Program-made: the position numbers and the translations under genes
The notes under the pieces: generated by a model
Seen by the model: only the letters and a program-made list of their open reading frames with translations
Told to the model about the DNA's origin: nothing
The model's database searches: none
Shown: positions 1,212 to 13,467 of the stretch, piece by piece
Position numbering within the stretch: position 1 is the first letter of the stretch
Layout of the letters: the number at the start of each line of letters is the position of its first letter
From: Gammaproteobacteria bacterium
GTDB lineage: Bacteria > Pseudomonadota > Gammaproteobacteria > Steroidobacterales > Steroidobacteraceae
DNA: 43,571 nt
Assembly: GCA_019247195.1 (NCBI GenBank)
Contig: JAFAPI010000165.1
Location: 1-43,571, forward strand
Direction of reading: 5' to 3'

Positions 1212-2738
1212 GTGCGCGCGCAACGCAGCTCCAAGGTCGATTCCTCGCCGGGCAACGGTTCGCGCACCCGTCAGCGCCAGCGCCAGCGGCTCATCGAGGC
1301 GTGCATTTCGGCGCTGCACATCTACGGGCCTTCGCGTACCACGGTCGAGAAGGTAGTGGCACTGGCCGACCTGTCGCCGGGGATCGTGCGCTTTTACTTC
1401 ACTTCGAAGGCGGCCATGCTGGTGGCCTCGCTGGCCTACCTGGCCGCCGAGTTCGACGAACGCGTCCTCAAGCCGGTCGCGCAGTTGCGGGAGGCGCCAG
1501 TGCAGGCTCTGCGCCTGCTGGTGGATCTGTATCTCGATGCGGATATCGCCAGCCCGCGCAAGGTTTCGGTGTGGTATGCATTCTGGGGCGAGGCTAGCTC
1601 GCGGCAAGAATACTACGACATTTGCGGCAAGAAGGACGATGACTTCGCCGAGCTGGTGCGCGATCTCATCAGCCGGCTCATCGGCAGCAGCGGTGCGCGG
1701 CATCTAGATGCCGACGCGGTGGCATTGGGCCTCATCGGCGTACTCGAGGTCCTGTGGCAGGGTTTTGCCTTCCAGAGTGAAGCGAACATCGACCGAGCGG
1801 CTGCGGTGCAGCGCTCGCTCGCTTACTTGCGCTCTGTCTTTCCGACCGAATTCCGCGACGCCGTGGTGCCGGTGCCGGCCAGCGTTGCACTACCCACCGA
1901 TGGCGCCCGGTTGGCCGCCGCGGCGTATGCCAGCCCACCTCTCCTGGCCGCGGAACGTGAGCGGTTGCTGCGCTCGGCTTGGCAGATGATCGGGCACGAG
2001 GGCGAGCTGCGCCGGGCCGGGGACTATCTGACCGGGGATCTGGGCGGTGAGCGCGTGTTGGTGGTGCGGGCCGAGCGCGCGCGCCTCCACGCCTTCCGCA
2101 ATACCTGTCGACGCAGCCCACACGCGCTGCTTAGCGAGCGGCGTGGCCACCTGCAGAGCGCGATTCGCTGCGCCGCCCACGACCTTACATACACCTTCGA
2201 TGGACACCTCGTGGAAGGCCGGACCAGCGGCGACCTGCTGGCACTACCGCTGCGTTGCGAGGACGGCCTGATCTTCGCGCGTGCCGAGGGGGGAGCCGCG
2301 GCTGCGGCGCTGTCCCCCGCGTGGCGTGAGGTGGGAGCTCTGCGCCCTGGGCCGGTGAGTGATTTCGACGTGGGCGCCGATTGGAAGGTGTTGATCGAAC
2401 AGTGGCTCGAACGCAGCCTGCCGAACTGCGATTTCCTGCCACCCAACCAATTGCTGCAGCGCGAGGGCGACGCCGCGGTAGTCCTGCAGGTCATGCCGCT
2501 CGCGCCCGGCAGTGCACGCGTCCGCCGTTTCGAACTGACCCCCAGCGGGCGTGCTGCCGGTACCCGCACCGCGTGGCAGCGCCGACTCGATCACTGGCTG
2601 AGGAGCGAGCTGGCGCTGGCTACTTCGACCCAAGCCGGACTGCTGAGTGGCGCGCCCGCCGAGGAAGCGGGCCCGGTAGGCAGCGCGCTCGTCGAGTTTC
2701 GCCGCTCGATCGCGGCCTTGCTGCGCGCCGTCAGTTGA
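1212..2738 (+). CDS. BetI-like TetR regulator fused to a degenerate Rieske oxygenase domain
   Basis: A 508-aa open frame with a GTG start at 1212. Residues about 20-70 are a TetR helix-turn-helix (RTTVEKVVALADLSPGIV, then YFTSKAAML), and about 85-210 match the BetI-type ligand domain (SPRKVSVWYAFWGEASS). Residues about 245-360 are a Rieske domain close in sequence to the oxygenase encoded next door, and about 385-505 are the remains of its catalytic domain. Of the four [2Fe-2S] ligands, C299, C320 and H323 are kept, but the first His is R301 (a His sits at 304). In the catalytic remnant the acid E400 is kept, but both iron-binding His are replaced (L403, F408), and roughly 100 residues are missing. 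It therefore cannot act as a normal oxygenase. I infer a DNA-binding sensor whose former enzyme domain binds the pathway substrate or senses redox state. Its 3' end overlaps the convergent oxygenase gene by 8 bp. Confidence 0.85.
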   Translation: MRAQRSSKVDSSPGNGSRTRQRQRQRLIEACISALHIYGPSRTTVEKVVALADLSPGIVRFYFTSKAAMLVASLAYLAAEFDERVLKPVAQLREAPVQALRLLVDLYLDADIASPRKVSVWYAFWGEASSRQEYYDICGKKDDDFAELVRDLISRLIGSSGARHLDADAVALGLIGVLEVLWQGFAFQSEANIDRAAAVQRSLAYLRSVFPTEFRDAVVPVPASVALPTDGARLAAAAYASPPLLAAERERLLRSAWQMIGHEGELRRAGDYLTGDLGGERVLVVRAERARLHAFRNTCRRSPHALLSERRGHLQSAIRCAAHDLTYTFDGHLVEGRTSGDLLALPLRCEDGLIFARAEGGAAAAALSPAWREVGALRPGPVSDFDVGADWKVLIEQWLERSLPNCDFLPPNQLLQREGDAAVVLQVMPLAPGSARVRRFELTPSGRAAGTRTAWQRRLDHWLRSELALATSTQAGLLSGAPAEEAGPVGSALVEFRRSIAALLRAVS

Positions 2739-3894
2739 AGCGTGCCGGCGCCGTGGCCAGTCGCGCTTCCGGAATGCGCTCGCGCAGCAGGTTGTGGAAC
2801 TCAAGCATCCAGTGCTCGATTGAGGACAGCGGCCCGGGCTCGTAGCTGTCGGAGGCCAGCCCCTGCTGCACTCGCTCGCACAGGAACTGATCCTCGCGCT
2901 GGACCTGACGGTTGATACGCCCTCCGAGGTAGCGCGCGATGCGCATCTCCCGTCTCGTATCGGGCAGACCGTAGACCGCTCCACGCACGGTGCATTTTCC
3001 CGGGCCGCGGGGCAGGACCTGAAAGTAGTCCATTTGCTCCGGGAAAACGTCGATGCCAAGGTTCGGCAATACGCTGTAGAAGCTCCAGCGACGGCGTTCG
3101 CGCTCCGGCAGGTGCGTAGCCACACTCCCGATCAGCTGTTGGTACATGCGCTCGGTCCAGCGGCTGGAGGGCTGTGCGCGCAGCCAGCTCGCGCCGCGCG
3201 CGACTCCGCTGTGCAGGCGGCGCTGATCGTCATAGTCCGGCGTGAAGGTGCGGTATAGCCCGGGGTGCCCGATCGGAACGTGGTAGGACTCGAGGTAATT
3301 GTCGATAGCAACCTTCCAGTCACACTCCCAGTGCTCCACGTATTCACTGAGCAGCTCCATCTCCTCGAAACGGAACGGCAGGAACTCTTCGGCAACCTCG
3401 GCTAGCACCTGGTCAATCGGCGGCGGTGTGCCGGCGACACAGACGAAGACGAAGCCGAGGAAGATCTGCAAGCGCACCGGTTTGAGGCCGAGCTGCGCGC
3501 GCTCCAGCGGCGGGAAAGTGTCGCGGGCGGGAATGCCCAACAAATCACCGCTGTGGCGGTACGACCAGCCGTGATAGGGGCACGTGATCGCACCTGGACA
3601 GTTACCGTGGCCAGCGAGAAGGCGCGCGCCGCGGTGGCGGCAGACGTTATGAAAGGCGCGGACTTCGCCGTGCGAGTCGCGGACCGCGACGATGCTGTCG
3701 CGGCCCATGTCGAGCGTCACGAAATCCCCCGCGCGGCGCAGCTGACTCAGGTGGCATACGACCTGCCAACTGGGCTTGAGGATGCGCTCGTACTCCAGGC
3801 GCGCCATCTCGGGGTGGTTGTAGACCCAGGCTGGCAGGGCACGCGCCATCGCGGGGGCGGGGGGCTCAACCGGACGGACGAGGGGTGAGCTCAT
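2731..3894 (-). CDS. Rieske-type aromatic-ring-hydroxylating/quaternary-amine oxygenase, alpha subunit
   Basis: A 387-aa terminal oxygenase of the GbcA/CntA/stachydrine-demethylase type. The Rieske cluster ligands are C85, H87, C105 and H108 (CRHRG...CPYHGW). The mononuclear iron site is H205 and H210 in ESYHVPIGH, with D335 (EDQF) as likely third ligand. The electron-bridging acid is Glu (E202) rather than the common Asp, as reported for carnitine oxygenase CntA. These enzymes hydroxylate an N-methyl or adjacent carbon of a quaternary amine, releasing formaldehyde or trimethylamine. The start at 3894 is preceded by GGAGG. It is divergent from the aminotransferase operon and convergent with the regulator fusion. 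No ferredoxin or reductase partner gene is in the window, so electrons must come from elsewhere. Exact substrate unknown; O-demethylation is a weaker alternative. Confidence 0.88.
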   Translation of the reverse strand: MSSPLVRPVEPPAPAMARALPAWVYNHPEMARLEYERILKPSWQVVCHLSQLRRAGDFVTLDMGRDSIVAVRDSHGEVRAFHNVCRHRGARLLAGHGNCPGAITCPYHGWSYRHSGDLLGIPARDTFPPLERAQLGLKPVRLQIFLGFVFVCVAGTPPPIDQVLAEVAEEFLPFRFEEMELLSEYVEHWECDWKVAIDNYLESYHVPIGHPGLYRTFTPDYDDQRRLHSGVARGASWLRAQPSSRWTERMYQQLIGSVATHLPERERRRWSFYSVLPNLGIDVFPEQMDYFQVLPRGPGKCTVRGAVYGLPDTRREMRIARYLGGRINRQVQREDQFLCERVQQGLASDSYEPGPLSSIEHWMLEFHNLLRERIPEARLATAPARFN

Positions 3895-3914: not shown

Positions 3915-3928
3915 TATATGAACATATA
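3915..3928. promoter_or_regulatory. Operator-like palindrome, copy 1
   Basis: TATATGAACATATA is a 14-bp inverted repeat with 6-bp arms and a 2-base centre. It sits just downstream of a possible minus-strand -10 (TAGAAT, plus positions 3929-3934), where transcription of the oxygenase gene would start. It is AT-rich in an otherwise GC-rich region and nearly identical to the second copy at 3946. Length and symmetry suit a TetR-family dimer; the obvious candidate binder is the fusion regulator at 1212. Confidence 0.7.
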
Positions 3929-3945: not shown

Positions 3946-3959
3946 TATATGATCATATA
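3946..3959. promoter_or_regulatory. Operator-like palindrome, copy 2
   Basis: TATATGATCATATA is a perfect 14-bp palindrome, differing from copy 1 at one position. The centres of the two copies are 31 bp apart, about three turns of B-DNA, so two dimers would sit on the same helix face. It contains TATGAT (3948-3953), a plausible -10 for the plus-strand operon, so occupancy would block both divergent promoters. No further copy was found in the window. Confidence 0.7.
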
Positions 3960-4021: not shown

Positions 4022-5350
4022 ATGGCCCGCACCCTCACGCGCAATCGAGAGCATTTTCGGCGGGCCCTGCAGCGTCTGCCGCTCGGTGTCGCGTCCAATT
4101 TCCGATTCTGGGGTGAGGATCGCACCATTTATGTGAAACACGGGCGCGGCGCACGGGTCACCGACCTTGATGGCAACGTGTACGTGGACTACCGCATGGG
4201 GTACGGGCCGTCGATCCTCGGCTATGCCGATCCGCGCGTGGACGCCGCGGCGCGCGCCGGGATGGAGGTGGGCGGTGTCTTCGCGCTCTCCACCGAGCGC
4301 GAGCTGAGCGTGGCCGAACGCATTTCGCAGATGGTGCCGGCAGCGGAACTGGTGCGGTTTTCGAACTCGGGCACCGAAGCGGTGATGGCGGCGCTGCGCC
4401 TGGCACGCGCCTACACCGGCCGCGACAATTACGTGATTCTCGAGGGCAGCTATCACGGCCTGTTTGACGCCGCCATGTGGTACACGCCGATGGAGAAGTG
4501 GGCCGAGGTGGGCGACCCGGTCGTCTACCCCTACAGCGAGGGCGTGCCGCTCGCCACGCGCAACTTCGCGCATTTCGTGCAGGCCAACGATGCCAACCAG
4601 CTCGAGGACGTCCTGAAGCGCCACGGCCACAACATCGCGTGCCTGCTCATCGAGCCCATCATGGGCAACTGCCTGGGGATCGCCGCAGAACCAGCGTACG
4701 TGCGAGCTGCGCGTGAGCTATGTGACCGGTACGGCGTGGTTATGATCATCGATGAGGTCAAGACCGGCTTCCGCGTGGCACGCGGCGGCGTGCAGGAGCT
4801 CTACGGCGTGCGAGCCGACCTCTGCACCTTCGCCAAGGCGGTGGCGAATGGTTATCCGATCTCGGTCCTGGCGGGTCGTGAGGAGATCATGCGCAAACTC
4901 GGTAAGGGTGTCGCCCACGGCGGTACCTACACTGCGCATCCGGTGTCGCTCGCGGCCGCGGAGAAGACCCTGCAGATCCTGGCGGAGACCGATGCCCTCG
5001 AGCGCCTGGCTGCTTATGGTACGCGGCTGCGCCAGGGCAAGAGCGCGATTCTCAAGGCGCGGGGCATTGCACACAGTTTCGTCGGCCATCCCTCCATGAG
5101 CGGGCTGTATTTCGCACATGAGCCGCCCCGCACCTACCGGGATTGGAAGCGCAGCGACTACACGTTCTACGACGCCGTCGCCAGAGTGCTGCACGACGAG
5201 TGCATACTGTGCGAACCAGACTCGCGCGAGCCTTGGTTCATGTCAGCTGCGCACGACGATGCCTGCCTGCGGGACACCCTGAGCGCTTTCGAGATCGCGG
5301 TCGACCGCACGCTCGACGCGCTCGGTAGCACCCGTCGGGTTCCGGCCTGA
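4022..5350 (+). CDS. Class III PLP-dependent aminotransferase (glutamate-1-semialdehyde aminomutase-like)
   Basis: A 442-aa fold-type I PLP enzyme. The ATG at 4022 follows GGAG at 6-base spacing and is preferred to an upstream in-frame ATG at 3977 that would lie inside the leader hairpin. SNSGTEA (residues 114-120) contacts cofactor phosphate, EGSYHG is at 141-146, D244 (IIDEV) binds the pyridine nitrogen, and K272 ([11 protein letters not shown]) forms the Schiff base. It resembles HemL, but the context is catabolic and not tetrapyrrole synthesis. I infer transfer or removal of an amino group on an omega- or beta-amino acid intermediate of the island pathway. It is the first gene of a plus-strand operon that continues to the TonB receptor. 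Confidence 0.85.
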
Positions 5351-5373: not shown

Positions 5374-6975
5374 ATGAGTTCCACCGGTCGCAGCCGCTAC
5401 GACGCCATCGTCATCGGGGCCGGCCACAACGGCCTGGTCAACGCCTGTTATCTGGCGCGCGCCGGACTGCAGGTACTGGTACTCGAGCGCAATACCTTCG
5501 TCGGTGGCGCCGCCGTCAGCCGCAAGCTCTACGACGGCTTCACCTATTCGAATTGCTCGTATGTGTGCAGCCTGCTGCGCACCGAGATCATCCGTGCGCT
5601 GGAGTTACCGCGCTTTGGCCTGCAAATCATTCCCTACGAAGGCGGTTGTACTCTCATGCGGAATGGCGAGCACCTCGCCATATACGACAATCACGACGCA
5701 CTGCGCCGCGAAATCGCCCGTCACTCGCGTCACGATGCCGAGGCATACGAGCGTTACGTACGCGACATGCTGCGGCACTGCCGCTTCATCAAGCCGTTGC
5801 TGATGCGCGAGCCGCCCGATCCGACCTCATTCAGGCCGCGGGACATCCGCGAGTTGCTGTTCCTCGCCCGTCATTTCCACGGCCTGGGGGAGGCGCGGAT
5901 GTACGACACGCTGCGCTTCTACACCATGAGCTGCGCCGACATGCTCGAGGAGTATTTCGAAAGCGAGATCGTAAAGGCGCACCTGGCTGGCAGCTCGATC
6001 ATCGGCACCGCGCTCGGACCGCGCTCGCCGGGTTCGGCCTACGTCCTGCTGCACCACTACATGGGCAGCATCGACGGTGCGGTGGGAGCATGGGGCTTCG
6101 CCCGGGGCGGGATGGGTGCGATCACCCAGGCGCTGGCGAGCTCCCTGCAGGCGAGCGGTGGCGAGATCAGGACGGGCGCCCCGGTCGAAGAGGTGCGAGT
6201 GCAAAGCGGCCGTGCCACCGGCGTCGTGCTCGAAAGCGGGGAGGAAATTACAGCGCGTGTGGTGGTCTCCAATCTCGACGTGAAACGCACCTTTCTCAAG
6301 ACGGTGGCAGCGGCGCACCTGCCGCCTGAGTTCCTCGACAGGGTACGCAAGTTCAAGATCCGCGGCTCCTCCGGCAAGCTCAACATCGCGCTCGACGGGC
6401 TGCCGCAGTTTCCGGCCATTCCGCAGGGCTCGCCCGCCACCCGCGGCGACATGCACATCACGGATACGCTCGAGATGGTTGAGCGCGCTTACGATGACTG
6501 GAAGGAAGGGCGCTGGTCGAGCGCTCCGTACGTCGACATGCTGATTCCGACGCAGATCGATCCGACCATGACACCGGATGGAAAACACTACATGTCGGTG
6601 TTCGTGCAGTACTGCCCCTACCAGCTCGCCGATGGCGATTGGACCGCCGCCAAGCGCGAGGCCTTCGGCGCCACCGTCATCGACGCCATTGCCCGGCACA
6701 GCCCGGACTTCAAGGAGCTGATACTGCACGCGGAGATTCGCACGCCGCGCGAAATCGAGGCCGAGGTGGGCCTTACGGAGGGCAACATCTTTCAGGGCGA
6801 GCTGACCTTCGATCAACTCCTTTTCAACCGCCCGCTCCCTGGCTACGCGCAGTACCGCGCTCCGGTACGCGGCATGTACATGTGCGGCTCCAGCACTCAC
6901 CCTGGCGGCGGAGTCATGGGTGCACCGGGTGCCAACGCCGCCGCCGCAATCCTGCGCGACCTCGGGCGTACGTGA
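5374..6975 (+). CDS. FAD-dependent oxidoreductase, phytoene-desaturase-like (first of a pair)
   Basis: A 533-aa flavoprotein of the COG1233/amine-oxidase-like superfamily. The dinucleotide-binding motif is GAGHNG (residues 15-20), with the acidic residue E38 at the end of the second strand and a GG doublet (VGGAA, 43-47). The C-terminal FAD motif HPGGGVMGAPGANAAAAIL is intact. Members include carotenoid desaturases and PYROXD2-like proteins; no carotenoid gene is nearby, so a role in oxidising an amine or carbon skeleton of the island substrate is more likely. Its last bases overlap the start of a paralogue of nearly equal length (GTGA overlap at 6972), which suggests equal production and perhaps a heterodimer. 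Reaction unknown. Confidence 0.82.
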   Translation: MSSTGRSRYDAIVIGAGHNGLVNACYLARAGLQVLVLERNTFVGGAAVSRKLYDGFTYSNCSYVCSLLRTEIIRALELPRFGLQIIPYEGGCTLMRNGEHLAIYDNHDALRREIARHSRHDAEAYERYVRDMLRHCRFIKPLLMREPPDPTSFRPRDIRELLFLARHFHGLGEARMYDTLRFYTMSCADMLEEYFESEIVKAHLAGSSIIGTALGPRSPGSAYVLLHHYMGSIDGAVGAWGFARGGMGAITQALASSLQASGGEIRTGAPVEEVRVQSGRATGVVLESGEEITARVVVSNLDVKRTFLKTVAAAHLPPEFLDRVRKFKIRGSSGKLNIALDGLPQFPAIPQGSPATRGDMHITDTLEMVERAYDDWKEGRWSSAPYVDMLIPTQIDPTMTPDGKHYMSVFVQYCPYQLADGDWTAAKREAFGATVIDAIARHSPDFKELILHAEIRTPREIEAEVGLTEGNIFQGELTFDQLLFNRPLPGYAQYRAPVRGMYMCGSSTHPGGGVMGAPGANAAAAILRDLGRT

Positions 6976-8540
6976 GCGCCGCCGCCGCTTACGACTGTGT
7001 GGTGGTCGGTGGCGGCCACAACGGCCTCGTGTGCGCCACTTACCTGGCACGGGCGGGCCGTTCCGTCCTGGTACTGGAGGCGGCACCGTCGCTCGGAGGA
7101 GCCGCCATTACGCGCGAATTTGCTCCCGGATTCAGGGTCTCTGCCTGTGCGCACCTGTTGCACCTCATGCCACCGGCGCTCATGCGCGAGTTGCAGCTTG
7201 AGCGCCATGGCTTGGCCTGGGCCGCGCGCGAGGTCGGCACGCTGGCGCTCGACCCTTCCGGCTCACCGCTGCACCTGGCGCAGGGCACTCTCACCGAGCT
7301 GTCATCCGGAGCACCGGCGCCGGACAGCGCGGCATTTCAGGAGTGGCGTGCGCTGCTGCGCCGTTTTACCGCGGCACTGCACCCGGTACTCAACCAGACG
7401 CCGCCGCGGCTAGGGACTGGTGCGTGGCGTGACCGCGGTGCTCTCCTCAGCCTCGCCTTGCGCATCCGGCGTCTGGGGCGCACCGATCTGCGCGAGCTGC
7501 TGCGCATCGGCGGCATCTGCATCCACGACGTGCTCGAGGAGCGCTTCGCATCGCCGCTGCTCAAGGGCGCGCTCGCGCTCGATGCGGTGCTTGGCACGAA
7601 TTACGGCCCGCGCTCACCGGGTACCGTGCTGTCGCTGCTGTACCGCAGCGCCGCCGGCGCGGGGGCAGAGCGGCTTGCGCTGCCGCGCGGCGGCATGGGC
7701 AGCTTGACCCAAGCGCTGGCCGAAGCGGCCAGGGCTGCCGGGGTAAGGCTGCGCACCGATGCGACGGTGGAACGGATCCTGGTGCATGAGGACCGCGTGC
7801 AGGCAGTGACGCTGGCGGGCGGGGAGACGGTGCGGGCACGAGCCGTGATCTCCAGTGCGGATCCGAAGACGACGCTCCTGCAGCTGCTCGGCAGCGAGCA
7901 CCTGGATGCCGGCTTTACGCGCCGTGTGGCGCAGCTGCGCACGCGCGGGCTGGCAGGGAAACTGCACCTTGCCCTCGATGGCCTGCCGGTCTTTCGCGGT
8001 GTGCCGGCCTCGTGCTTGCGGGACCGGCTGTTGCTGGCGCCCTCGGCCGATTACATCGAGCGGGCCTACAACCATACGAAATACCGTGAGTACTCGGCTG
8101 CTCCGATGATGGAGGTCACCGTGCCCAGCGTGGCCGATCCGTCGCTGGCTCCGTCCGGTCAGCACGTGCTGTCTGCCATCGTGCAGTACCTGCCGTACGA
8201 GGTCGCGGGTGGCTGGGAGGAGCAGCGGCCGCGCCTGCTACAGACCCTGCTGAGCACGCTCGCGGCCTATGCGCCCGACCTGCCGCAGCGGGTGCGCGCC
8301 GCCGAGTTGCTGGCACCGCCGGACATCGAGCGCGAGTTCCGCATCGGTGGGGGTCACTGGCATCACGCCGAGCTCGCGCTCGACCAGTTCTTCCTGGTGC
8401 GCCCGGTACCGGGGGCCACGCAGTACCGAGCCCCGGTGGCCGGCCTCTATCTGTGCGGCGCCGGCTGCCATCCGGGAGGCGGTGTCATGGGGCTCGCCGG
8501 GCGCAACGCCGCGCGCGAAGTGCTGCGGGAGGCTGCCTGA
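6972..8540 (+). CDS. FAD-dependent oxidoreductase, phytoene-desaturase-like (second of a pair)
   Basis: A 522-aa paralogue of the preceding gene. The GTG start at 6972 overlaps the previous stop by three bases and puts the FAD motif GGGHNG at residues 13-18; the open frame upstream is only the shadow of gene one. It shares with its neighbour the patterns GPRSPG, RGLAGKLHLALDGLP and CHPGGGVMG...NAAREVL, in the same order. The divergence between the two is large, so this is an old duplication rather than a recent repeat. The stop TGA overlaps the ATG of the next gene by one base. It is likely to work with its neighbour on the same or consecutive substrates; the reaction is not known. Confidence 0.82.
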   Translation: MSAAAAYDCVVVGGGHNGLVCATYLARAGRSVLVLEAAPSLGGAAITREFAPGFRVSACAHLLHLMPPALMRELQLERHGLAWAAREVGTLALDPSGSPLHLAQGTLTELSSGAPAPDSAAFQEWRALLRRFTAALHPVLNQTPPRLGTGAWRDRGALLSLALRIRRLGRTDLRELLRIGGICIHDVLEERFASPLLKGALALDAVLGTNYGPRSPGTVLSLLYRSAAGAGAERLALPRGGMGSLTQALAEAARAAGVRLRTDATVERILVHEDRVQAVTLAGGETVRARAVISSADPKTTLLQLLGSEHLDAGFTRRVAQLRTRGLAGKLHLALDGLPVFRGVPASCLRDRLLLAPSADYIERAYNHTKYREYSAAPMMEVTVPSVADPSLAPSGQHVLSAIVQYLPYEVAGGWEEQRPRLLQTLLSTLAAYAPDLPQRVRAAELLAPPDIEREFRIGGGHWHHAELALDQFFLVRPVPGATQYRAPVAGLYLCGAGCHPGGGVMGLAGRNAAREVLREAA

Positions 8541-9757
8541 TGCTCACCGAGAGCGCACCGCACTACCGGCAACCCCTGCTGAAGACTCCGTTCCATGAGC
8601 GCGCACGCGAGTGGAGTCAGCTGGATAGCTTCGTGCCATGGAGCGGTTACAGCACGGTCGACGTTTTTACCAGCGTCGAGCAGGAATACTTCGCCATCCG
8701 CAACGCTAGCTCGCTCTACGATCTCACGCCGATGGTGAAGTACCGCATCTGCGGGACGGACGCACTGCGCTTTCTCAACCGACTCGTCACGCGCGACCTG
8801 AGCAAGCTCGGGCCGGGCAAGGTCGCCTACGTCGTATGGTGCGATGATGCAGGTCAGCTCATCGATGACGGCACCGTGTTCTGCATTGGTGCGCAGGAGT
8901 ACCGGCTGTGTACTGGCGAGCGGCAGCTCGACTGGCTGCGGGCTTCGGCCATCGGCTTCGCGGTCGAGATCCAGGAGATCACCGAGGACATCGCAGCGCT
9001 GGCGGTGCAGGGTCCCACCTCGTGTGCACTGCTGCTGCGTGCGGGGCTGACCGGCATCGAACGGCTGCGTCCGTTCGAGCACGGCGAGTTCACGCTGACC
9101 CGCGCCGGCCGCGAGCCGATGAGCTTGATGGTCTCGCGCACGGGTTTCACTGGCGATCTGGGTTACGAGTTGTGGTTGCGCCCGGCGGATGCCGAACCGG
9201 TGTGGGACGTGCTGCTGGAGGAGGGCAGTCCCCGGGCCGTGCGGCCGGTCGGCTCGCGCGCCCTCAACATGGCGCGCATCGAAGCGGGTTTCCTGCTGCC
9301 TAACGTCGATTTCATCTCGGCGGCCCATACCCTGTACGTCGGTACCGAACGCTCGCCCCTGGAGTTGGGACTGGGCTGGCTGGTGGACTTCGGCAAGGGC
9401 CACTTCACCGGACGCCGGGCGCTGCTCGCCGAACAAGAGCGCGGGCCGCGGCGACAGCTGGTTGGTCTTGACGTGGACGGCAACAAGCCCGCCCACAACG
9501 CGCTCCTCTACAGCGATCGAAGCGCGCGACGCGAAGTGGGCAGCGTCAGCTCCGCAACCTGGTCCCCGACCTGCAAGCGCAATCTCGCCCTGGCCATGGT
9601 CGAGGCGGCCTACGTGTCCGTCGGCAGTACCGTGTGGGCAGAGATTTATCTCAATCGCGAGCTCACTTGGCAGCGACGCGTGGTGCGCGCGCGCGTAGTC
9701 GAGCGTCCATTCTTCGCGCCGGCTCGCCGGCGCAGCACACCGCCTGCGCTCTACTGA
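8540..9757 (+). CDS. GcvT-like tetrahydrofolate-dependent methyl/aminomethyl transferase
   Basis: A 405-aa protein of the glycine-cleavage T-protein superfamily. The N-terminal folate-binding part runs to about residue 285 (YDLTPMVKYRI; LIDDGTVF with the conserved Asp pair at 109-110; SRTGFTGDLGYELWL), followed by the C-terminal beta-barrel domain. The family includes DMSP demethylase DmdA, O-demethylase LigM, and the C-terminal halves of sarcosine and dimethylglycine dehydrogenases, all passing a one-carbon unit to THF. No gcvH or gcvP gene is close, so the glycine cleavage system proper is unlikely. I infer that it takes a methyl or methylene group from the island substrate. The start ATG overlaps the previous stop (TGATG), giving translational coupling. 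Confidence 0.83.
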   Translation: MLTESAPHYRQPLLKTPFHERAREWSQLDSFVPWSGYSTVDVFTSVEQEYFAIRNASSLYDLTPMVKYRICGTDALRFLNRLVTRDLSKLGPGKVAYVVWCDDAGQLIDDGTVFCIGAQEYRLCTGERQLDWLRASAIGFAVEIQEITEDIAALAVQGPTSCALLLRAGLTGIERLRPFEHGEFTLTRAGREPMSLMVSRTGFTGDLGYELWLRPADAEPVWDVLLEEGSPRAVRPVGSRALNMARIEAGFLLPNVDFISAAHTLYVGTERSPLELGLGWLVDFGKGHFTGRRALLAEQERGPRRQLVGLDVDGNKPAHNALLYSDRSARREVGSVSSATWSPTCKRNLALAMVEAAYVSVGSTVWAEIYLNRELTWQRRVVRARVVERPFFAPARRRSTPPALY

Positions 9758-9774
9758 CGCATAATCCCGCGCGC

Positions 9775-10920
9775 ATGATCGCCTCACAGCTCAAGCCTCT
9801 CGCGGATCGCCCCTGGCTCGACCCGACGGCGCAGCCGCAGATCCGCATCGAGGCGGTGAGCAAGAGCTACGGGACGCAGGTGGCGGTCGACGCGGTGACG
9901 CTGCACATCTACAAGGGCGAGATGTTCGCTCTGGTCGGTGCGTCAGGTTGTGGCAAGACGACGCTGCTGCGTATGCTGGCCGGGTTCGCGCACCCCACCA
10001 GCGGGCGGCTGTTCATCGATGAACTGGAGCTTGGGCCGGTGCCCCCGCACGAGCGGCCGGTCAACATGATGTTCCAGTCTTACGCGCTTTTTCCCCACAT
10101 GACGGTAGCCGACAATGTCGGCTATGGTCTGCGCCGCCTGTCTCTGCCGGCCGCCACCAAGCGGCAGCGTGTGCAGGAGGCGCTCGACATGGTGCAGCTC
10201 GGGGCGCTCGGCGGGCGCAAGCCCCACCAGCTCTCGGGCGGTCAACGCCAGCGCGTGGCACTGGCGCGGGCGCTCATACGTCGCCCGAAGGTACTGCTGC
10301 TCGATGAGCCGCTGTCGGCTCTCGACAAGAAGCTGCGTGAGCAGACGCAGTTCGAACTCATGGACCTGCAATACAAGCTCGGAATCACCTTTATCGTGGT
10401 CACGCATGACCAGGATGAGGCCATGGCGCTCGCGACCCGCATCGCGGTGATGAATCAGGGGCAGGTGGTGCAGGTGGGTACGCCGGCGGAGATCTACGAG
10501 TTTCCACGCAGCCGCTTCATCGCCGACTTTGTCGGTACCACAAATCTGTTCGAGGGCACAGTGTGTGCCTGTGAGCCCGGGCTGATACGCGTGCAGTGCA
10601 GCGAAACCGGTGGCGAGCTGCTGGTGGATGAGACCGGCGTATTCAATGTGGGGCAGCGGGTGTGGGTCGCGCTGCGCCCAGAGAAGGTGCGACTCGCCAA
10701 GGAGCCGCGGGACGGGAACCGCATCAATCAGCTGCGTGGCACGGTATGGGAACTCGGCTATCTCGGCAACCGTTCCACTTACCGCGTCCGCACCACGAGC
10801 GGCAAGCTGGTGACGGTGTTCGCGCAGAACGAGCGTCGCACCTCCGAGGCCACGATCGACTGGAGCGATGAAGTCTTCGTCAGCTGGAGTGCCGACGCGG
10901 CTGTGCTGCTGCAGTCCTGA
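9775..10920 (+). CDS. PotA-type ABC transporter ATPase
   Basis: ATP-binding subunit of 381 aa, from the ATG at 9775; an open frame upstream overlaps the GcvT gene and is rejected. Walker A is GASGCGKT (55-62), the Q-loop is Q101, the signature is LSGGQ (153-157), and Walker B is VLLLDE (173-178), followed by the H-loop in VVTHDQDEA. The last 100 residues form a TOBE domain, typical of PotA/FbpC-like importers. It most likely drives the PotB/PotC-like permeases at 1-1108, although those are on the other strand and almost 9 kb away. CATAAT at 9760-9765 could be a -10 placing a transcript start at or next to the ATG. Confidence 0.9.
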   Translation: MIASQLKPLADRPWLDPTAQPQIRIEAVSKSYGTQVAVDAVTLHIYKGEMFALVGASGCGKTTLLRMLAGFAHPTSGRLFIDELELGPVPPHERPVNMMFQSYALFPHMTVADNVGYGLRRLSLPAATKRQRVQEALDMVQLGALGGRKPHQLSGGQRQRVALARALIRRPKVLLLDEPLSALDKKLREQTQFELMDLQYKLGITFIVVTHDQDEAMALATRIAVMNQGQVVQVGTPAEIYEFPRSRFIADFVGTTNLFEGTVCACEPGLIRVQCSETGGELLVDETGVFNVGQRVWVALRPEKVRLAKEPRDGNRINQLRGTVWELGYLGNRSTYRVRTTSGKLVTVFAQNERRTSEATIDWSDEVFVSWSADAAVLLQS

Positions 10921-10947: not shown

Positions 10948-13467
10948 ATGGCTATCTGGATCGCGAGGGGATTGGGCGGGAAGCGTGTCATGGCGGCGGC
11001 TCTGCTATGCGCCGCGGCGGCCCACGAGCCGCTGTTCGCGCAGCAGGCCACGGAGGCGGGCGCGAGCGCCGCGGAGGCGAACCGCGGCGGACTGCAGGAA
11101 GTGGTGGTGACTGCCACGCGGCACGAGGAAGCATTGAGCCGCGTGCCGGTCAGCGTCACGGCGCTGACCCAGGAGTCGATGGACCAGCTCGGCATCAAGG
11201 ACTTCCAGGACGTCGCGCGCTTCACCCCCGGCGTCAACATCGACACCTCGGGCACCAATGCGATCTCGATCCGCGGCATCTCCTCCTCTGGTGGCGCCGG
11301 GACCACCGGCATCTATATCGACGACACGCCTATCCAGATGCGCTCGGTGGGTTTCAACCCTGACGATACCTTGCCCAAGACCTTCGACCTGCAGCGGGTG
11401 GAGATCCTGCGCGGCCCGCAGGGGACGTTGTTCGGCGCGGGCTCCGAGGGCGGGGCGGTGCGCTATATCCTGACGCCACCCTCCGCGACCACCGTGGACA
11501 CGTACATCCGCACCGAGGGCTCCTACACCCAGTACGGTCAGCCTAACGCCGAGTTCGGCATCGCGCGCGGGCAGCCGCTGGTCGACGGAGTGTTCGGGGT
11601 GCGCGGCAGCCTCTGGTACCGCTATGACGGGGGCTGGGTGAACCGCGTCGATCCGACCACCGGTGCAATGGTGGAACGCAACATCAACTTCTCCAACTCG
11701 GTCATGGCCCGACTGGCGGGGGTGTGGCAGCCGACGGGCAATTTCAGCGTGACACCGAGCGTTCTCTATCAGAAGCAGGACAAGCACGACGATTCCACCT
11801 TCTGGCCGGCGTACTCCGATCCGGCCCGCGGGCGCTTCAATACGGCGACCCCGGAGCGCGTCGGCGGCCCCGATGACTATGTGTTGCCGGCGCTGAAGGT
11901 GCAGTGGGATCTGGGGGGAAGTCAGATCATCTCCAATACTTCTTACTTCCATCGCAAGCAGATCACCGCCTACCAGGGCACGGTTTACGATCTGGCTTAC
12001 TACCAGGGCCTATCGGGGTGCACCTCGAGCCAGGACCCGGGGTGTGCGTGGTTTCCGCTGCTGGACGCCAACGGCATACACCTGCCGGCTGGATTTACCA
12101 ATTTCCAGACGCCGAACACGATGACCAACCGCCAGCAGAGCTACACGCAGGAGGTGCGCTGGCAGTCCAGCAATGAGGATGCGAAGTGGCGCTGGACGGC
12201 GGGCCTGTTCTGGCAGCTGGCCAAGGAGGGCAGCATCGAGGAATTGAAGGACACGCAGATCGAGCAATTCTTCTCGACGGTGCTCGGCTTCACGCCCGAG
12301 AGCTACTACGGCGGTGTGTTTTATTCGTGCCCCACCAACGCCGCTTATCCCGCCATTCCGGCCTGCGACATCTACTACAACAACAACACGACCTTCGACC
12401 GGCAGATCGCCGCGTTCGGCGAACTCAGTTACGCCCCGGTGGACTGGTTCCGCCTCACAATCGGCGAGCGCGTGGCGCGCACCTCGTTCACGCTCTCGCA
12501 CTATGCGGACGGGTACGAGAACTTCGGACCGAGCCCGGCCCAGGCCAGTCAGAAGGAGACTCCAAACACGCCCAAACTCACGCTGGCCTTCCAGGTGGAT
12601 CCGCGCGACCTCTACTACTTCACCTACGCGAAGGGCTTCCGGGTCGGCGGCGGCAATGCCCCGCTGCCACCGTTCTGCAACGCGGACCTGGCGGCGGCCG
12701 GGTACCCGAACGGCGCGCCGCTCACTTACCGTTCCGACTCGACGCAGAACTTTGAGGTCGGCTCCAAGAACGCCTTCGGCAGCTGGCTCAAGCTCGCCCT
12801 GAGCGTCTATTACATCAAGTGGAACGATATCCAGCAGAGCTTGTACGTTGCCGGCAACTGCGGGCTGCAGTTCACCGACAACCTCGGTACGGCGGTTGCC
12901 AAGGGATTTGACCTGCAAGCGCAGATGCAATTCGATGCTCTGCACATCGATCTGGCGGGTGGCTATACCAGCGCGCGTTACACCAAAGACTCTCCGAGTG
13001 GCTGCGAGACCCAGGTAGGGATCCCGGTCATTCCCTGCAAGAGCAGCGACGGTGACGCCATTTCGGGCCAGGCGGCGATCGACTACGCACCGGGCAGCAT
13101 CGCGCCGTGGACTACGGCGCTCGGCGTGGAATACGCGTTGCGCCTCGGCCAGCGCGATGCTTTCGTGCGCGCCGACTGGGAATACGAGAGCCGCAATCCC
13201 TGGCTGGCCGCGGTGCAGGACCCGCACAACCAGGCGGTGTACAACCCCTACAGCTACACCCCCAGCGCCAACAGCTTTGTGTCGCTGCGCGCCGGCGTGA
13301 ACCTCGGCGACTGGCTGGTGAGCGCTTTCATGGACAACGTCTTCGATTCGCACACGGTGCTCAACTACGCCCTCGTGCAGCCCACGCCGGGGGTGCTGCC
13401 GCAGCAGAATCAGTACACGTTCCGGCCGCGCACGATCGGCATCACCGCCACCTGGCACGCGCACTGA
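10948..13467 (+). CDS. TonB-dependent outer-membrane receptor
   Basis: An 839-aa outer-membrane receptor with a strong ribosome binding site (AGGGGAG) before the ATG at 10948. A signal peptide ends near residue 31 (...AHEPLFAQ). The TonB box-like VVVTATR lies just before the plug domain, which includes SIRGISSSGG, YIDDTPIQ and RVEILRGPQGTLFG. The beta barrel fills the remainder, with the usual YAKGFRVGGGNAP and TYRSDSTQNFEVGSKN patterns. The last residue is His, not the usual aromatic. It is 27 nt after the ATPase gene and probably the last gene of the operon. I infer that it takes up the same substrate as the Pot-like importer, which would then be too large or too dilute for porins. Confidence 0.92.
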   Translation: MAIWIARGLGGKRVMAAALLCAAAAHEPLFAQQATEAGASAAEANRGGLQEVVVTATRHEEALSRVPVSVTALTQESMDQLGIKDFQDVARFTPGVNIDTSGTNAISIRGISSSGGAGTTGIYIDDTPIQMRSVGFNPDDTLPKTFDLQRVEILRGPQGTLFGAGSEGGAVRYILTPPSATTVDTYIRTEGSYTQYGQPNAEFGIARGQPLVDGVFGVRGSLWYRYDGGWVNRVDPTTGAMVERNINFSNSVMARLAGVWQPTGNFSVTPSVLYQKQDKHDDSTFWPAYSDPARGRFNTATPERVGGPDDYVLPALKVQWDLGGSQIISNTSYFHRKQITAYQGTVYDLAYYQGLSGCTSSQDPGCAWFPLLDANGIHLPAGFTNFQTPNTMTNRQQSYTQEVRWQSSNEDAKWRWTAGLFWQLAKEGSIEELKDTQIEQFFSTVLGFTPESYYGGVFYSCPTNAAYPAIPACDIYYNNNTTFDRQIAAFGELSYAPVDWFRLTIGERVARTSFTLSHYADGYENFGPSPAQASQKETPNTPKLTLAFQVDPRDLYYFTYAKGFRVGGGNAPLPPFCNADLAAAGYPNGAPLTYRSDSTQNFEVGSKNAFGSWLKLALSVYYIKWNDIQQSLYVAGNCGLQFTDNLGTAVAKGFDLQAQMQFDALHIDLAGGYTSARYTKDSPSGCETQVGIPVIPCKSSDGDAISGQAAIDYAPGSIAPWTTALGVEYALRLGQRDAFVRADWEYESRNPWLAAVQDPHNQAVYNPYSYTPSANSFVSLRAGVNLGDWLVSAFMDNVFDSHTVLNYALVQPTPGVLPQQNQYTFRPRTIGITATWHAH

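Follow-up and report, generated by a model that had tools for sequence, protein, structure and literature searches.

A BetI-type TetR regulator fused to a degenerate Rieske oxygenase that keeps four Cys/His residues

Why should a transcriptional regulator carry the body of an oxygenase that appears to have lost its active site? The question is raised by a contig of a Gammaproteobacteria bacterium assigned to the Steroidobacteraceae (JAFAPI010000165.1, assembly GCA_019247195.1; all 43,571 nucleotides, hereafter the window), in which one uninterrupted frame of 508 codons at positions 1212–2738 (+ strand, GTG start as listed) joins a BetI-type TetR regulator to a degenerate Rieske-oxygenase alpha subunit. 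A first-pass annotation of the window had proposed this reading and regarded the architecture as undescribed. Our literature searches for TetR-Rieske fusions, Rieske pseudoenzymes and TetR regulators with an oxygenase domain, in which subscription papers were partly covered, found nothing relevant and no description of it.

The fusion gene and its neighbourhood

Both parts of the protein were recovered by the domain search that the first-pass annotation had suggested. A Pfam scan gave TetR_C_6 at aa 96–210 (E 2.6e-13, 50.6 bits against a cut-off of 27) and the Rieske domain PF00355 at aa 257–339 (E 9.3e-10, 38.7 bits against a cut-off of 20.3); TetR_N at aa 38–72 scored 21.8, slightly below its cut-off of 24, and Ring_hydroxyl_A gave no match in the fusion protein. 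The N-terminal part (aa 18–216; 1263–1859, +), supported by profile matches and a match to the TetR-regulator fold, combines a helix-turn-helix, for which TetR_N is sub-threshold, with the C-terminal domain of BetI-type members of the TetR family, and its DNA-binding helices are nearly invariant across the family. It is not a BetI equivalog, reaching 70.1 bits against the TIGR03384 cut-off of 201 (NCBIfam).

The C-terminal tail (aa 216–508; 1857–2735, +) is 35% identical to the neighbouring oxygenase across 127 aa, which agrees with the relationship proposed at first pass. Structure prediction of the Rieske part had also been recommended then; the AlphaFold2 model, whose input alignment held 56 rows, some of them fusions with all catalytic residues, has a mean pLDDT of 91.3. 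Using VIA-align, the tail matched stachydrine demethylase Stc2 (Z 26.7–26.9) and CntA (Z 26.2) over the whole domain (278–292 residues), with salicylate 5-hydroxylase at Z 27.0, so that the tail fold matches tie within 1 Z. The TetR half matched TetR regulators with Z up to 19.8 (3e7q). The tail is predicted to retain a complete but shortened Rieske-oxygenase alpha-subunit fold, and it is by its Rieske domain together with this predicted fold that we class it as an alpha subunit.

A frameshift or misassembly was rejected as the origin of the fusion. Collinear single-frame fusions were found in the same genus and family in a search of 196 relatives, and a GTDB genome scan yielded 80 loci. After alignment, the degenerate fusion was present in 56 species, in the same two-domain order, in one frame and from independent assemblies, and 13 genomes carried a TetR fused to an oxygenase in which no cluster or iron ligand is missing. 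Among records of the window's genus, some bear the label Steroidobacteraceae (e.g. L072).

The fusion gene is divergent from a gene for a PotH-type permease (218–1267, −; profile match) and convergent with a gene for an intact, group V-like Rieske oxygenase of 387 aa (2731–3894, −), which has Rieske and Ring_hydroxyl_A domains, resembles GbcA and has all cluster and iron ligands. On the other side of the oxygenase gene lies a divergent operon on the + strand. It begins with a class III aminotransferase (4022–5350; the ORF is listed from 3977, with 4022 the likely start), followed by a CrtO-like FAD oxidoreductase (5374–6975; profile match), a second FAD oxidoreductase (6639–8540; start inside the listed ORF), a GcvT/demethylase-like protein (8453–9757; likely start about 8540) and a PotA/PotG-type polyamine ABC ATPase (9634–10920; profile match). 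A TonB-dependent receptor (10948–13467, +; profile match) comes next and is conserved in the cluster. The order PotI/PotH, fusion, oxygenase, aminotransferase, both FAD oxidoreductases, GcvT-like protein and PotG recurs in relatives, often with the TonB receptor, and an opposite-strand oxygenase lies within 6 kb downstream in 42 of the 48 fusion loci with enough flank (within 60 bp in 22). Genes for an aminobutyraldehyde dehydrogenase, a beta-keto acid cleavage enzyme, an ADP-forming CoA ligase, PotF and a thioesterase resembling that of carnitine 3-dehydrogenase are added in relatives. From this content we infer that the cluster breaks down a quaternary or N-methylated amine.

Two further features of related loci were observed. 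A second, more distant Rieske-type protein (about 25–31% identical to the query) stands beside the main oxygenase in L093, L095, L098, L101, L109, L118, L132 and L133. Many relatives encode a small protein near the pot genes (L057:11994-12587, L058:6153-6731), the L057 copy of which has weak MIOX/HD-domain matches and no NCBIfam match.

The lost active site and the four Cys/His residues

The first-pass annotation had reported that both mononuclear-iron histidines are lost, being replaced by L403 and F408. The loss stands; the replacement does not, since the segment itself is missing. The interval between W391 and P411, both of them conserved (2382–2444, +), spans 19 residues in the fusion versus 81–83 in intact enzymes, and by this spacing a deletion of about 64 residues removed both histidines in the window's lineage. 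Other pseudo-fusions keep a 74-residue segment in which both histidines are replaced. With the 2-His-1-carboxylate iron site lacking both of its histidines, the tail, judged from its sequence, cannot be an oxygenase. The canonical C-x-H ... C-x2-H ligand set is likewise incomplete (C299, R301, C320, H323). A published account treats the cluster and iron ligands as a feature by which members of all five Rieske oxygenase groups are recognised (PMC10952381); judged in that way, the fusion protein is not one of them.

The half of the tail corresponding to the catalytic domain is also its least conserved portion, with a column entropy of 2.0–2.2 versus 0.35–0.96 in the TetR part. This bears on one of the two models offered at first pass, that the pseudo-catalytic pocket binds the pathway substrate; spelled out, the degenerate oxygenase pocket would bind the quaternary amine of the pathway and signal to the TetR part. 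Among the closest folds are the quaternary-amine enzymes Stc2 and CntA, and enzyme-derived effector domains occur in MocR/GabR and PutA. However, because the active-site segment is deleted in the window protein and the catalytic half is so poorly conserved, this is the weaker of the two models; moreover, the best-conserved residues of that half look like fold core and are found in active enzymes too, and the highly conserved BetI-type domain of the TetR part can itself serve as ligand pocket. We consider a substrate-sensing tail unlikely.

The other model, a metal or redox site, is favoured by the pattern of conservation around the Rieske ligand positions. C299, C320 and H323, together with R301 and the candidate substitute ligand H304, were found where they had been reported. 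C299 (2106–2108, +), H304 (2121–2123, +) and C320 are invariant among the 56 degenerate fusions, and H323, which forms the CxxH motif with C320 (2169–2180, +), is kept in 54. Position 301 (2112–2114, +), that of the canonical first His ligand, varies: only 8 of 56 have His there, the others having R, Q, V, E, A, S, N, K or I. When the 274 tail positions are ranked by conservation, the top 26 include C299, H304, C320 and H323 and no other Cys or His. The earlier mention of H304 as a possible site residue was thus a good hint. The preceding Pro303 occurs in 54 of 56 degenerate fusions versus none of the 13 fusions with all catalytic residues and none of 60 neighbouring oxygenases; H304 is present in 11 of the 13 versus 0/60. 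Two pseudo-fusions labelled as alphaproteobacteria, L116 and L123, carry Asp instead of H323. In one species (L031/L099) loop 1 and C320 are gone and the rest is kept.

The +5 position held by H304 is taken in bc1-type Rieske proteins by the loop-bridging cysteine beside the cluster, and H304 is for this reason plausibly near the metal; a literature search on this +5 cysteine found no paper. Taken together, we infer that a C-x4-H ... C-x2-H metal site replaces the Rieske C-x-H ... C-x2-H arrangement. Retention of H304 could also be structural, because the residue occurs in CntA as well and was already there in the fusions that have all catalytic residues. Still, dozens of related species keep four residues of metal-binding type unchanged, which suggests that the degenerate tail is kept as a sensor and is not mere wreckage.

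Constraint, loss and descent of the tail

We compared close pairs of loci by the method of Nei and Gojobori, with synonymous sites near saturation in several of the pairs listed. The dN/dS ratio was 0.03–0.17 for the TetR part, 0.17–0.61 for the tail and 0.06–0.47 for the neighbouring oxygenase. By this measure the tail is constrained, with dN/dS below 1, yet its rate of evolution is several times that of the TetR part; tail identity falls to 29–40% in pairs whose oxygenases keep 74–80%. Stand-alone regulators (L120/L122/L124, L126-L130 and others), as well as truncated ones, fall inside the fusion clade of the TetR tree. At least about five lineages therefore appear to have lost the tail, or to retain a badly truncated one, and in these it is dispensable. 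Remnant tails are seen in L136 and L137.

Such observations would fit a decaying leftover without a sensing role, the TetR part doing all regulation: stand-alone species have repeatedly lost the tail while keeping the operator described below, the tail evolves faster than the TetR part, the site is damaged in L031/L099, and L136/L137 hold remnants. Against this, the frames remain open in 56 species even where tail pairs share 29–45% identity, dN/dS stays below 1 and a complete fold is confidently predicted. Plain decay would not spare just four Cys/His residues while neighbouring residues changed. A tail that is only a leftover therefore seems improbable to us.

A third possibility is that the tail pairs with the adjacent oxygenase or its reductase and senses enzyme level or electron supply by contact. 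Rieske oxygenases form alpha3 rings in which cluster-to-iron contacts cross subunits, the whole alpha-subunit fold is predicted to be kept, and an oxygenase gene is the neighbour in 42/48 loci. The deleted segment and the fast divergence of the tail relative to the oxygenase oppose a conserved interface, however, and we regard an assembly domain as very unlikely.

The trees used here are quick trees with SH-aLRT support only, and the placement of the long-branched tail is moderate evidence. With the longest branches removed, the degenerate tails formed one group with 11 of the fusions with all catalytic residues (SH-aLRT 97.9). The TetR parts of the fusions were split from all added stand-alone BetI-like regulators but one (L157; support 98). 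These groupings, less firmly on the TetR side, and the H304 character suggest an origin of the degenerate form from TetR-oxygenase fusions in which every catalytic residue was present. Copying of the tail from the neighbouring oxygenase is disfavoured by this grouping and by the distribution of H304 (11/13 versus 0/60); derivation from the neighbour thus goes unsupported, less firmly so in that a grouping of the tails with the neighbouring oxygenases was not rejected (AU p 0.30). A single origin of all TetR-Rieske fusions was also considered. It was rejected on the Rieske side, where L147 and L152 represent a separate fusion (AU p 0.012), and not on the TetR side (p 0.39).

Among the 13 fusions that have all catalytic residues are those of Inquilinus limosus, of a Hyphomicrobiales MAG and of four genomes from the same order as the window; in the three that were scanned, TetR_N, TetR_C_6, Rieske and Ring_hydroxyl_A were all above cut-off. 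The fusions of Inquilinus limosus (L144:10010-11788, L142:10010-11788, L150:1725-3497) have all catalytic ligands and lie near Pot transporter genes. The L142 record is named 'Mycobacterium sp. KBS0706', but its fusion is almost identical to that of Inquilinus limosus and groups with it, and the name looks wrong. On sequence grounds the Inquilinus limosus fusion is a candidate oxygenase-repressor from a cultured organism. In L151 (1453-4797; G314) a second complete Rieske oxygenase gene lies behind a fusion with all catalytic ligands, in the same orientation, possibly an intermediate preceding decay of the fused copy.

Predicted operator and proposed function

A motif, TATATGNNCATATA, occurs twice, 31 bp apart, between the divergent oxygenase and aminotransferase operons, as TATATGAACATATA at 3915–3928 and TATATGATCATATA at 3946–3959. 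Allowing up to two mismatches, these are the only two copies in the window, versus 0.11 expected; elsewhere in the 3.18-Mb genome neither the motif nor a reversed control was found at up to one mismatch. The motif is present at 44 of 47 homologous intergenic regions, 39 of them with up to one mismatch, and is retained in species whose TetR has lost the tail. It is absent from the tetR/potH promoters, that of the window included, within two mismatches, and from L053 and L067, aminotransferase/FAD cluster loci with other TetRs; at L055 it was not found within the stretch read. It is also absent at L116. Assignment of the motif to the fusion regulator is indirect but strong, and action of the regulator on these paired predicted sites between the oxygenase gene and the aminotransferase-FAD-FAD-GcvT-PotG operon is well supported. 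The fusion gene adjoins the intact oxygenase gene, as the first-pass annotation had reported, and probably controls it. In tail-less loci (L062:10940-12812, L126-L130) tetR lies behind the oxygenase gene in the same direction, hence downstream of the operator, and may have become self-regulated. For 7 of 12 fusions that have all catalytic residues, TNAAYGNNCRTTNA dyads lie upstream, versus 0.13 expected; the pattern was chosen after the sequences had been viewed.

We judge it somewhat probable that the protein is a repressor of a quaternary/N-methyl-amine catabolic cluster whose TetR pocket senses the inducer and whose tail provides a second, metal or Fe-S, input. The regulator would bind the paired sites and repress the oxygenase gene and the divergent operon in both directions, and the conserved BetI-type pocket would release DNA upon sensing the quaternary or N-methylated amine of the pathway. 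As second input, C299, H304, C320 and H323 would bind an Fe-S cluster or another metal and report iron, cluster supply or oxygen, so that the Fe-S-requiring oxygenase would be made only when its maturation is possible. The trees and the H304 character point to a history that would begin with the joining of an oxygenase to its own regulator. A separate gene would then have taken over catalysis and the copy in the fusion would have degenerated into a sensor, a tail that several lineages afterwards discarded. More tentatively, we propose that a TetR-fused Rieske oxygenase lost catalysis and became a sensor: with an Fe-S cluster or other metal at its rewired C-x4-H ... C-x2-H site, the regulator would read directly whether the oxygenase under its control can be built or kept intact. 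The relatives with all catalytic residues would then be PutA-like oxygenase-repressors.

The locus shares features with several known systems. Like BetI-type repressors (TIGR03384, PF13977), the fusion has a TetR fold with a BetI-type C-terminal domain and sits in a quaternary/N-methyl-amine gene cluster with a dyad operator, predicted here, at a divergent promoter; it differs from BetI in its low equivalog score and in adding an oxygenase-derived tail of roughly 290 aa. With the group V Rieske oxygenases CntA, Stc2 and GbcA the tail shares the alpha-subunit fold (Z about 26–27), the loop 1 Cys and the loop 2 CxxH, and with CntA the +5 His equivalent to H304; in contrast to them, it lacks the canonical first His ligand and both mononuclear-iron histidines and is fused behind a DNA-binding domain. 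In MocR/GabR an enzyme fold is reused as effector domain of a transcription factor, there a GntR regulator with a PLP-aminotransferase fold for which cofactor binding was shown, whereas here TetR is joined to a Rieske oxygenase and the cofactor is putative. PutA unites a catabolic enzyme and a DNA-binding domain in one chain under autogenous control (PMC5293562). It resembles the fusions with all catalytic residues, some of which have dyads upstream of their own gene, although its folds differ (ribbon-helix-helix and flavoenzyme). All ligands are present in the enzyme part of those 13 relatives; the window's lineage has a dead enzyme part, and its predicted operator stands in front of other genes, with no TATATGNNCATATA in the tetR/potH intergenic region of the window.

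Reuse of an enzyme fold in a regulator is known from PutA and MocR, and the TetR-Rieske version seems new; we found no report of an enzyme-derived sensor in which the enzyme is a Rieske oxygenase or the partner a TetR regulator. What look like steps in its making survive in living species, from fusions with all catalytic residues, one with a second oxygenase alongside, to dead fusions and regulators without the domain. The predicted operator and the four fixed residues make its function directly testable, and in cultured Inquilinus limosus a tractable form is available whose catalytic residues are all present. If the tail binds an Fe-S cluster, this would be a case of a Rieske-fold site serving gene control with an altered set of ligands.
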